Positions 1,377 to 17,681 of a DNA stretch of 23,911 bases are shown here, piece by piece. The stretch is taken from positions 1 to 23,911 of IMG/VR virus record IMGVR_UViG_3300018048_000059; one strand, 5' to 3'. Below the pieces are notes generated by a model that was not told the DNA's origin, ran no database searches, and was given only the letters and a program-made list of their open reading frames with translations. This stretch comes from a virus. The position numbers and the translations under genes were made by a program. Position 1 is the stretch's first letter. Each line of letters starts with the position of its first letter.

Positions 1377-2492
1377 CTATTTAAAGTATGGTCCTACTAA
1401 CCATGTTACGGCACTGTATCGAGTTCCTGTTGTTACTGGCTCAACACCATGTATCATATAACTAGGAAATACTAACACAGTTCCTTTGCTTTGTGGTGGA
1501 TAAAATACTCTACCATCAGCGTTAATAAAAAACTTACCACCTTCATAATCATCATTCAAAAATGCCAAGCATGTGAGCTTTCTTGTCTCTTCACTATGAC
1601 TATGAAACGTATCTACATGTTGAGTGTAATGTCCTTCTGGTTTATATATTAATAACTCAGTTTGATTAGAATGAGTTATATGATATTGCCACCAATACTG
1701 GTTTGCATTTAATCCTGTTGATGTTAGTGTGGCACCAATGCCTACATTTTGTGGCAGTATAACTCTTTTAACATCTCTAATTGTTTTATCTATTTCTCCA
1801 GTATTGTTACCAATGTATGGTGGTTCTTTATTTATACTGTCTTGTGAGTATGTGTTAATTAAGTTATTGCAAAAGTCATGAGACAAATGATTATCAAATA
1901 CAGCACAATTAGTTAATGTTCGTTCAGTAAGTGTATTTTTAGAGACACCTAATGACTGACGTTTATCATACTTCCATTCAGCATGTGGTCCATCAGCATC
2001 TACATAATGTAAGAATACTTGTGCTTGCCATTGACCTTCAGTATACTTTTCTCGCCAATGCTCAACTTCCATGCCACGATACAAAACGGCATCACCTACT
2101 TGCATATCTACTTTGTTACCTTCCATGTAGATAGACCATACGTCACCTTCAAAACCTAGTGTAATGGTTGCTGATATTTCACAGGCTGGTCTGTCTTTAT
2201 GCTTTACAAGTTCGTCACCAGGAGCATATAATCTTGCGTATGAATAAGTTGGATATAATCTTTTACCACAATGTTTTTCAAAGTGTGGTAATAAGTCTAC
2301 TAACAACTGGTCAAATGTCTGTGTTCCATGTACAGCTTCTGACTTTGGGCATTGTATATCTTTTACTGTACGTCCGTTTACAACTAAATCTTTTAATGCT
2401 TGTGTTAATTCTGCACAGTTTTGTTCGTCTAAAAAGCTTTTTAAATGTACATAACTGTTTTGTTGAAAACTATCAATGCTTGTTTGATACAT
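1377..2492 (-). CDS. Tandem-domain 2-oxoglutarate/Fe(II)-dependent oxygenase
   Basis: A 371-residue cytoplasmic protein with two copies of the 2OG-Fe(II) dioxygenase fold. Domain one (about 1-175) carries H98-K-D100 and H145 (VEHWREKY), the facial triad for iron. At the place where the cosubstrate-binding R/K normally sits it has Q (GQWQAQVFLHY). Domain two (about 195-371) has H292-V-D294, H348 (MIHGVEP) and R358 (TGTRYSAVTW), a complete prolyl-4-hydroxylase-like set, plus NDDYEGGKFF before the second half. Such enzymes use 2-oxoglutarate and O2 to hydroxylate proteins, nucleic acids or small molecules; the substrate is not readable here. The gene sits between the fiber module and the lysis module. 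The start at 2492 has no clear Shine-Dalgarno sequence (AT-rich CAATATATT precedes it), so expression may depend on the gene upstream, which ends at 2502. Confidence 0.88.
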   Translation of the reverse strand: MYQTSIDSFQQNSYVHLKSFLDEQNCAELTQALKDLVVNGRTVKDIQCPKSEAVHGTQTFDQLLVDLLPHFEKHCGKRLYPTYSYARLYAPGDELVKHKDRPACEISATITLGFEGDVWSIYMEGNKVDMQVGDAVLYRGMEVEHWREKYTEGQWQAQVFLHYVDADGPHAEWKYDKRQSLGVSKNTLTERTLTNCAVFDNHLSHDFCNNLINTYSQDSINKEPPYIGNNTGEIDKTIRDVKRVILPQNVGIGATLTSTGLNANQYWWQYHITHSNQTELLIYKPEGHYTQHVDTFHSHSEETRKLTCLAFLNDDYEGGKFFINADGRVFYPPQSKGTVLVFPSYMIHGVEPVTTGTRYSAVTWLVGPYFK

Positions 2493-15846: not shown

Positions 15847-16689
15847 TTAAGCTTCACGACATGTGATTTGAACAATACCTTCAGCATCGATCGCTACTGC
15901 ACCAGCTGAAAACATAGCATTCACTAAGAATGATGTTTTTTCTGGAACATAATTGATCTCTGTCTTAGGACCCATACCTTCAGCATAGCCAACTGCATCT
16001 TTGTGGAATGCCCAGATAGTTCTATCTAAAGAACCGTCAACAGCTAAACCACCTTCAACTCTGTCGCCAAGTACATGGAAATTGAAACCTAAGAATGTAT
16101 TGATTTCTCCAGATACTAAAGCTTTAACTGAGTTGTAGTCAGATGAAGTAACTTCTGTTTCGCCTAGTAATGCAGCTAAAGAATTAGCATGAATTACCAT
16201 GTGACGATCTTGTGGAGGTACGTTGTTTTTATCTAAAGCTTTCTTAGCAGCTAAAAGCTTGTCTAAGTTTAAGTTAGAGTCAGTACCACCGATGTCATTA
16301 GAAACAGTGTTTGATGTTGAAGATGCTGTTAAAGCATCAATAATAAGTTGGTCTTGACGACGACCGATAGCATTAGCAACAACTTGTACTAATTCTTGTC
16401 TTTCGTCAAAGTTAACTTTTTGTTGCATGAAGATGTCGGAATATTCTGCTGCATTCCAATCTTCCATTGTTGCTGTTACTTGTGAAAAATCCACATTCAA
16501 TGGTGTTACGTCTGTTTGTGGAATACGTAATGTTGCTACGCCTTTACCCGCTTTCGGGAATTTTGCTGTTGAACCCTCAACGCCACGTCTTTGTCTTACT
16601 GCGCCAACTAACTGCGCTTTAGCTTGGTAAGCCTGTTTAACTTCGGCATCAAATAGGGTAACAAAAGCATTAGATAATCCAATAGCCAT
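15847..16689 (-). CDS. Major capsid protein (HK97 fold)
   Basis: A 280-residue shell protein. Position between scaffold and the tail genes, short length without extra domains, and motifs identify it. QKVNFDERQELVQVVANAIG is the spine-helix type sequence; TLRIPQTDVTPLNVDFSQVT and NAAEYSDIFMQQK are the preceding strand segments. DRHMVIHANSLAALLG and FLGFNFHVLGDRV match the 'R..vi.p......L' and 'v.gf.v...n.l' blocks of HK97-fold capsid proteins of T7-like podoviruses. There is no N-terminal delta domain, consistent with the separate scaffold gene just upstream. A promoter-like element and structured leader precede it, and an AAGGAG ribosome binding site lies six bases from the ATG at 16689, both fitting the most abundant virion protein. 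Confidence 0.92.
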   Translation of the reverse strand: MAIGLSNAFVTLFDAEVKQAYQAKAQLVGAVRQRRGVEGSTAKFPKAGKGVATLRIPQTDVTPLNVDFSQVTATMEDWNAAEYSDIFMQQKVNFDERQELVQVVANAIGRRQDQLIIDALTASSTSNTVSNDIGGTDSNLNLDKLLAAKKALDKNNVPPQDRHMVIHANSLAALLGETEVTSSDYNSVKALVSGEINTFLGFNFHVLGDRVEGGLAVDGSLDRTIWAFHKDAVGYAEGMGPKTEINYVPEKTSFLVNAMFSAGAVAIDAEGIVQITCREA

Positions 16690-16818
16690 TATTAGCTCCT
16701 TAGTAATTAATAAAAGTAAATTAATCGCTGTGGTGTGCCAGAGATGTCTGGGCCGTGCTTGCTATTAACGATAGCCAGTCGACAAGACTACTTGCGTTTA
16801 AGGGTTACATGAATATGT
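16690..16818 (-). promoter_or_regulatory. Structured 5' leader of the capsid gene
   Basis: A non-coding stretch with a chain of small hairpins, in minus-strand order: TTACAT-ATTC-ATGTAA (16820-16805), AGTC-TTGTC-GACT (16789-16777), GCTAT-CGTTA-ATAGC (16775-16761) and CCAGA-CATC-TCTGG (16751-16738). Then comes an AT-rich single-stranded-looking region and AAGGAG (16701-16696). It would form a folded 5' UTR of roughly 130-140 bases if transcription starts at the promoter-like element upstream. It may stabilise the capsid mRNA or control its translation. No known riboswitch is recognised. Confidence 0.45.
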
Positions 16819-16860
16819 AATAGGCCTCATTCCCGATTTTACATGGGAACAAAGCCTATT
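16819..16860 (-). repeat. 16-bp inverted repeat around the capsid promoter
   Basis: On the minus strand AATAGGCTTTGTTCCC and GGGAATGAGGCCTATT can pair along all 16 positions (three G-U pairs), separated by a ten-base loop ATGTAAAATC. It begins 11 bases after the scaffold stop. There is no following T-run, so it is not a standard intrinsic terminator. The loop contains the TAAAAT proposed as the -10 element of the capsid promoter. Confidence 0.75.
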
Positions 16861-16865
16861 GTCAA
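16836..16865 (-). promoter_or_regulatory. Sigma-70-like promoter upstream of the capsid gene
   Basis: TTGACA (16865-16860, perfect -35), an 18-base spacer and TAAAAT (16841-16836, five of six -10 bases) on the minus strand, starting seven bases past the scaffold stop. It points at the capsid gene 147 bases away. If real, host RNA polymerase could boost capsid transcription. The -10 lies in the loop of a long inverted repeat and the -35 touches its outer edge. Confidence 0.55.
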
Positions 16866-16871
16866 GCAATT

Positions 16872-17681
16872 TTAGCCAAAATTTTGAGCAAATGCTCTTT
16901 CGACTTTTTGACGGTAGGATGGATCAGATTGATATCTAGGATCTGCTACCATTTGATATAACTCTTCTCTAGATGGTGCGCCTTCGACTGGAGTAGTTTC
17001 GACAGGAAGTCGACCTTCATAAGATGCTCTCAGTTTTTCTAATGCAGCAATACCTTTTGCAGTACCACCCATTACTTTAAACTCTTCAAAGTCATCCTCA
17101 CCCCAAACGCCTTTTTGAACTAAACTAGATGCCCATTTTACAATACCATTAATTCTAACATCAGCATTAGGGCCTAAAGATTTACGCTCTTGTTCTAAGT
17201 TAATTTGTTGAGTTTCTGCATTAAGCATGTTACTTTCTACAACTTCACTAACAAGATCATCTAACGCAGCTTGACTCACACCATACTTAGATGCCCAGGT
17301 CACAACATGGTTACGTAATGGGTCATCTTCTGGTGTAGGACCAAATGCAGATAAATCATAGTTACCATCTGCTGGCGCCTTGTGCTTACCTTGAGAGATT
17401 TGTTTACGTAAGTCCATCCATGATTTAGCAATGCCTTCTAAATCTGGAGCATCTTCATCTGCTTTCCAGAAATTTTCAGGCCACCAATCAGGTCGTTCTA
17501 GTGGTTCATTATCTTCAGACTCAGCCGCAAATTCTGCTTTGGCTTTTAATTCTTCAGGATCACGATGATCTATTTCTACTTTTTGTGGACTCTCAGCATT
17601 AGCTTCTTCGACTTCTGGACTTGCTCCATCGAGTAGGCCAGTGCTTTCTTGATCCACACTAGGCTCGAGTGTTTCTTCCAT
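16872..17681 (-). CDS. Capsid assembly scaffolding protein
   Basis: A 269-residue, strongly acidic, helical and probably partly disordered protein directly before the capsid gene, the standard place of T7 gp9-type scaffolds. The first 80 residues are rich in E, D and S (SPEVEEANAESPQKVEIDHR). Next is PDWWPENFWKADEDAPDLEG followed by IAKSWMDLRKQI. This 'P.WlPEkFw...G....LaksY.eLek' block is common to phage scaffolding proteins. The C-terminus (EELYQMVADPRYQSDPSYRQ, then KVERAFAQNFG) is the likely capsid-binding end, by analogy. It would direct shell assembly and leave before packaging. Its ATG at 17681 shares a base with the upstream stop (TAATG). Confidence 0.87.
   Translation of the reverse strand: MEETLEPSVDQESTGLLDGASPEVEEANAESPQKVEIDHRDPEELKAKAEFAAESEDNEPLERPDWWPENFWKADEDAPDLEGIAKSWMDLRKQISQGKHKAPADGNYDLSAFGPTPEDDPLRNHVVTWASKYGVSQAALDDLVSEVVESNMLNAETQQINLEQERKSLGPNADVRINGIVKWASSLVQKGVWGEDDFEEFKVMGGTAKGIAALEKLRASYEGRLPVETTPVEGAPSREELYQMVADPRYQSDPSYRQKVERAFAQNFG

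Follow-up and report, generated by a model that had tools for sequence, protein, structure and literature searches.

Introduction

The major capsid gene of phage T7 has a strong transcript of its own, made from the phi10 promoter and opening with the structured 5' leader of gene 10. Phage HK022 has put RNAs, structured RNAs that lie near their promoters. Outside these phages, 5'-terminal stem-loops of the ompA type are described as stabilising mRNA (Emory et al. 1992, as cited in PMC2777011), and the phage-linked Rfam families, including manA, wcaG and c4, are covarying structured RNAs (PMC2864571).

Here we describe a capsid locus from a large group of short-tailed phages with one isolate, MEP301, in culture. 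As judged from sequence comparison, the group has a capsid-specific promoter of the host type and a new structured 5' leader, and in the branch of the DNA analysed here a second hairpin, lying over the promoter, apparently disrupts the leader fold in transcripts that come from upstream. The locus resembles T7 phi10 in a capsid transcript of its own with a structured 5' leader, but phi10 is read by the phage polymerase, whereas the hexamers found here are of the sigma70 type and MEP301 has no RNA polymerase gene. It also differs from the T7 gene 10 leader in that the leader is a large covarying fold and that a terminator stands before the promoter in most relatives. As in the ompA type, a base-paired structure lies at the very 5' end of the mRNA of a highly expressed protein; in ompA-type protection a simple stem suffices, whereas this leader consists of four hairpins, shows both conserved loops and internal loops that recur, and would have stabilisation as its presumed effect. 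Like HK022 put it is a structured RNA with which a phage transcript would begin, but it is capsid-specific, and downstream of it there are no terminators beyond chance. In contrast to the Rfam phage families, the leader is without an Rfam match: neither the window nor any of four divergent relatives carrying it reached a curated threshold. The leader was found ahead of the capsid gene in all close relatives that we examined and yet is in no RNA family database. It is a specific RNA element, open to experimental test, before the gene that a phage usually expresses most heavily. Furthermore, the replacement of terminator by hairpin among these phages provides a clean comparison of how a late gene is kept independent of upstream transcription.

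The capsid gene neighbourhood

The window, by which we mean the whole stretch of DNA analysed, is a 23,911-base virus contig of a podovirus. Its closest isolate is MEP301, a phage of OM43 (Methylophilales), with a DNA identity of 75.8% over 96% of a 2.3-kb stretch. The gene order in the window is portal, small gene, scaffold, capsid, small gene and tail tubular A, and MEP301 shares this order except for one additional small gene. Because the portal-to-tail genes are all on the minus strand, the promoter and the repeat described below have to be read on the minus strand. The major capsid protein gene (15847-16689, minus) matched PHROG 3437 (E 3e-59), its product is 86% identical to the MEP301 capsid protein, and a Shine-Dalgarno AAGGAG can be read from the sequence at 16696-16701 (minus). 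The gene for the scaffold or capsid assembly protein (16872-17681, minus) matched PHROG 1052, head assembly (E 7e-6), and MEP301 gp32 is equally placed. Elsewhere in the window, at 1377-2492 (minus), a 371-aa protein matched in its first half a PHROG called ferrochelatase and in its second half 2OG-Fe(II) oxygenase and DNA endonuclease families, suggesting that this is probably a fused or misnamed gene.

A sigma70-type promoter predicted at a fixed distance from the capsid leader

A first-pass annotation of this DNA had reported a TTGACA and a TAAAAT with an 18-base spacer adjoining the scaffold stop. We found this to be correct on the minus strand: the -35 hexamer TTGACA (16860-16865, minus) starts 6 bases after the stop of the scaffold gene, which ends at 16872, and the -10 hexamer TAAAAT occupies 16836-16841 (minus). 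With 11 of 12 consensus matches and a spacer of 18, this is the best promoter-like site in the direction of the genes. Promoter-like sites as such were not enriched, 56 being present in 20 kb of the window against 71 expected by shuffling, so that the promoter claim needed comparison with relatives; on sequence grounds, it is only this comparison that gives the promoter its significance.

In a 90-nt stretch of each of 107 unique sequences, we located the two-hexamer match with the best score and compared its position with that in shuffles. In 65 of the 107 sequences the -10 of this match ended 6-7 nt short of the leader, and in 67 it ended within 4-8 nt, as opposed to 5.7% of the shuffles. The top-scoring match was elsewhere in the stretch in 40 sequences; by inspection, boxes like TTG and TAnnAA are mostly visible at the usual place in sequences outside the fixed-distance class. 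TTG(A/C)-type hexamers are placed in relatives as the -35 is in the window, and the spacing between -10 and leader was repeated in a further set of capsid loci. Since a start site normally lies 6-7 nt from its -10, the first base of the leader is the expected +1. In the window the start predicted from this conserved distance is 16828 (minus), 7 nt past the -10, which agrees with the start near 16829 that had been predicted earlier; the expected +1 in MEP301 is 23742, with TTGCAA and TATATT bearing an extended TG there. That chance hexamers happen to lie beside a chance inverted repeat is hardly credible: promoter-like matches in the window are indeed no commoner than in shuffles, but chance would not keep a fixed distance to a strongly covarying leader over 107 sequences and a further set, nor would it give covariation between the arms of the repeat.

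These comparisons support a host sigma70-type promoter for the capsid gene, as the first-pass annotation had supposed. The hexamers recur in relatives at 6-7 nt from the leader start, and MEP301 encodes no RNA polymerase according to its authors (PMC8024684); the window itself is a fragment. A stem conserved without the hexamers, which had been named as the pattern speaking against a promoter, is the opposite of what we saw, the hexamers being kept throughout and the stem in one lineage only. The suggested likeness to phi10 as an operon-internal boost stands in part. The capsid gene would get its own start, but a terminator precedes the promoter in most relatives, and there the promoter would therefore open a fresh transcription unit instead of boosting an operon from within.

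A conserved, structured leader RNA in front of the capsid gene

Directly downstream of the promoter we found the dominant feature of the region, absent from the earlier account: a conserved structured capsid leader RNA of about 105 nt (16724-16828, minus), recognised by a covariance model with 72.9 bits (E 4e-15) and supported by covariation. In 80 IMG/VR contigs, MEP301 and the window, the conserved stretch between the scaffold and capsid genes starts with (A/G)AGGC. A MAFFT alignment of 33 short-loop members yielded a structure of 24 pairs, made up of P1 with an inner P2, P3, P4 and P5. By alignment and covariation, the window has the P1/P2 hairpin at the 5' end (16801-16827, minus; AGG[CCUA]UUACAU-AUUC-AUGUAA[C]CCU, with a C / CNNA internal loop), P3 at 16782-16795 (minus; GCAAG..CUUGU) and P4 at 16761-16775 (minus; GCUAU-CGUUA-AUAGC, then a conserved AAGC). 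Covariation further places P5 at 16732-16754 (minus; GG[C]CCAG..CUGG[CACA]CC), with an outer GC/GC pair suggested by C87-G122. P1 and P5 contain the identical asymmetric internal loop, a C opposite CNNA between GG/CC pairs. We considered this repeated loop as a C-loop and do not claim it as such, the published paper having given no usable consensus.

In the 33-member alignment 91.0% of the cells were paired, against 78.4% after shuffling, and pairing dropped to 23-48% when partners were slid by one to three columns. The same was true of 99 leaders fitted to the covariance model, with 93.6% of cells paired (79.2% shuffled), 419 double-change cells versus 135, and collapse on sliding. The further capsid loci again showed covariation (88.1% vs. 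75.9% shuffled). Mutual information, for which the structure was not used, gave model pairs as all nine of its strongest pairs, and two additional candidates, columns 45-52 and an outer C-G pair on P5. The fold was retained across leaders of 39-70% G+C. The single-sequence folding energy of the leader was unremarkable (z -0.82), and P1 averaged only 11-20% by nearest-neighbour energies even with its own start, which means that the fold rests on covariation. Taken together, a covariation-supported fold was found in the 5' region of one gene family, and the element can be classed on these comparative grounds as a structured cis-leader RNA. In the A3 numbering, columns 45 and 52, on either side of the 5' strand of P3, form A-U, C-G or U-G pairs in 99% by weight and have strong mutual information; this pairing would be a tertiary or pseudoknot contact.

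The occurrence of the leader was first determined in 82 sources, namely the capsid genes of 80 IMG/VR contigs, MEP301 and the window. The covariance model was trained on the 33 short-loop members, and long-loop members such as the window and MEP301 were outside the training set. The model gave one match per source in 82 of 82, upstream of the capsid gene (96 bits in MEP301), with no second copy in the window or MEP301. It matched once each in 100 of 100 further loci, which were picked because their capsid proteins resemble those of two divergent members and include some contigs that overlap earlier ones. A pattern of P4 and its linker occurred at 119 places in 120 IMG/VR stretches; all 113 matches with enough downstream DNA precede a capsid gene, and the other six are near a contig end where the next gene is cut off. 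The model found no leader in Vibrio phages, HTVC010P, HTVC028P, Hodr, Skadi-5, a Manatee Spring phage or SI2-type relatives, all of which are relatives with more distant capsid proteins. A permissive search of the window and five relatives with Rfam 15 gave no match to the leader, and a tRNA/tmRNA search gave none. By BLASTN against 50,697 phage records, one of two divergent leaders had no match and the other matched only MEP301, and our literature search found no description of this leader. The pattern search of 84,980 bacterial and archaeal genomes returned 17 matches, one of them a real leader and the rest at chance level. This genuine leader (L297:86-188, 77.7 bits) comes from a short contig that had been binned with the genome of an uncultured Flavobacteriaceae; the contig is probably of phage origin or was misbinned.

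An inverted repeat over the promoter, best read as a read-through hairpin

The promoter is overlapped by an inverted repeat with two 16-position arms and a 10-nt loop. As the first-pass annotation had described, the -10 lies within the loop and the -35 touches the outer edge of the repeat. The 5' arm, AAUAGGCUUUGUUCCC (16845-16860, minus), is in the promoter spacer and outside promoter-initiated RNA, and the 3' arm, GGGAAUGAGGCCUAUU (16819-16834, minus), overlaps leader positions 1-10, the 5' strand of P1. The claim that the 16-bp repeat pairs fully holds for the sense-strand RNA, where 16 of 16 positions pair with three G.U, but not for the DNA, in which the arms are complementary at 13 of 16 positions (81%) and form no perfect palindrome. 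The sense RNA hairpin has a folding energy of -22.6 kcal/mol (z -4.1, 0 of 200 shuffles), and the antisense strand is weaker (-16.8). Because the 5' arm is upstream of the predicted start, the whole hairpin would be contained only in read-through transcripts.

The long hairpin was present in 34 of the 107 sequences, in one lineage only. In this lineage the arms covary, the mean score being 11.25 for native pairs and 8.92 for swapped ones; the observed arm-pairing sum was reached by none of 20,000 permutations, and the result holds with one sequence per inner-arm type (16 types). When mismatches in the sense orientation were scored without favouring either kind, there were 57 G.U and 7 A.C, as would be expected of a stem that forms in RNA of the capsid sense and not of an operator in DNA; a C-to-T mutation bias in the 5' arm may be a partial source of the G.U excess. 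It had also been proposed that the repeat is an operator for a dimeric regulator, in which case the RNA hairpin would be incidental. We consider this improbable. The dyad is centred on the -10 and overlaps the -35 and -10 as repressor sites do, but its DNA symmetry is imperfect, the mismatches are of the kind that RNA tolerates, and the other lineage has the promoter but lacks the repeat. Moreover, an operator would keep its sequence, whereas the arms vary widely in relatives, the half-sites diverging while pairing is retained. Nor does the 16-bp hairpin look like an intrinsic terminator, as ACAUAUUC follows the stem and the hairpin is absent among the terminator-like sites. Of the three readings proposed in the first pass, an RNA hairpin in read-through transcripts has the best support, and the repeat is best read as a read-through hairpin that blocks correct folding of the leader.

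We then compared the two lineages. An intrinsic terminator upstream of the promoter was found in 0 of 34 hairpin members versus 64 of 73 others, where it lies just before the promoter; the promoter is retained in this other lineage without the long hairpin. On the capsid tree the hairpin and terminator states are split by a single well-supported branch, and, as far as this tree tells, the replacement is one evolutionary switch that has been retained since. Because there is a single change on the tree, we rejected the mutual exclusivity of terminator and hairpin as independent evidence. The terminator also bears on another possible role of the hairpin, that of an RNase III-like processing site which cuts scaffold-capsid read-through RNA and so gives a 5' end near the leader start. 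The position of the hairpin and its compensatory changes fit such a site, and in T7 promoters and RNase III sites are near each other, but a stem of about 12-17 bp with wobble pairs is short for RNase III, and a terminator at that place in the other lineage suggests insulation, not processing. We regard processing as rather unlikely.

Proposed functions of the hairpin and the leader

Returning to the read-through hairpin as a block to leader folding, we propose the following mechanism. The sigma70-type promoter (16865-16836, minus) would provide a separate transcript for the capsid gene, with its 5' end at 16828 or no more than one base away; we infer this to be the actual start. This transcript would begin with the first base of the approximately 105-nt leader, located only before the capsid gene. 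The window's lineage has no terminator between scaffold and capsid, and has instead the hairpin with its 5' arm in the promoter spacer. In read-through transcripts the hairpin would pair with the first 10 or so leader bases and stop P1 from forming, which would tie correct folding of the leader to initiation at the capsid gene's own promoter. The function of the leader would presumably be lost in read-through RNA, and this would replace the insulation that the terminator gives in the other lineage. Consistent with this, the predicted probability of P1 in the window was 0.16 with its own start versus about 1e-8 in read-through RNA, and in the terminator lineage added upstream sequence was predicted not to abolish P1. 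Comparison among relatives establishes the leader, its structure, its capsid-only location, the fixed distance between promoter and leader, the compensatory hairpin and the replacement of terminator by hairpin. The explanation as a whole, with a capsid promoter, a structured leader abutting the start and a read-through hairpin blocking P1, appears to us reasonably probable.

We think it most likely that the leader, as a structure at the 5' terminus, stabilises the capsid mRNA or enhances its translation. This is our first choice because 5'-terminal stems stabilise mRNA and the capsid gene needs high output. We also considered whether a freed CCCUU hides the Shine-Dalgarno in read-through RNA, and rejected this, as the predicted accessibility is nearly unchanged between the transcript forms. 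The calculated energies make P1 only modestly stable and give no Shine-Dalgarno switch, and thus lend no support to a simple translational switch. A binding partner is conceivable, as unpaired bases of the leader are conserved. The leader might in that case be a regulatory sensor that adjusts capsid synthesis on binding a small molecule, a host protein, or the phage's capsid or scaffold protein. Its capsid-only location suits a sensor, and loops and linkers (CGA, GCAAGC and the repeated C/CNNA loops) are conserved beyond the needs of a simple protective hairpin. On the other hand, we saw no conserved alternative pairing that hides the Shine-Dalgarno, and its accessibility is predicted to be similar in both forms, so a sensor is possible but unlikely. 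A long late operon has its predicted +1 at the first base of the leader, and it could accordingly be asked whether the leader acts like put, as an antiterminator on RNA polymerase at the start of late transcription. Downstream, terminator-like sites do not exceed chance in either the window or MEP301, which leaves little for a put-like antiterminator to read through, and we think this role very improbable. Our broader proposal, which we offer tentatively, is that the leader represents a new functional class of phage RNA, required for high capsid synthesis and active only when made from its own promoter and refolded into an inactive form in read-through RNA, as an RNA-level counterpart of the terminator in sister phages.

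A second leader type in SI2-type phages

Phages of the SI2 type, whose capsid is about 50% identical, have a different conserved leader at the equivalent place, after a terminator and a similar promoter. This leader is upstream of the capsid gene in L202 and L210-L260 (e.g., L213:259-358) and has the motif GCAGACCC..CGGCACCC..GGCCC..CCCTCGRT. A long stem is predicted in it, with double changes in 5 of 15 pairs, suggesting that it is probably structured as well. The presence of a second leader type in SI2 phages suggests that structured capsid leaders may be general in the wider phage group.

Two minor observations were made in these sequences. The terminator region behind the scaffold gene at L213:106-216, in which the terminator hairpin includes a CUCCUCCC stretch, resembles the alphaproteobacterial sRNAs SorX (E 0.001) and ar14 (E 0.05), below Rfam thresholds. 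In L211, L212, L221, L231, L248 and L254 there is an extra start codon after the leader and before the capsid match, and the extra stretch looks like a hydrophobic N-terminal extension or a small gene.
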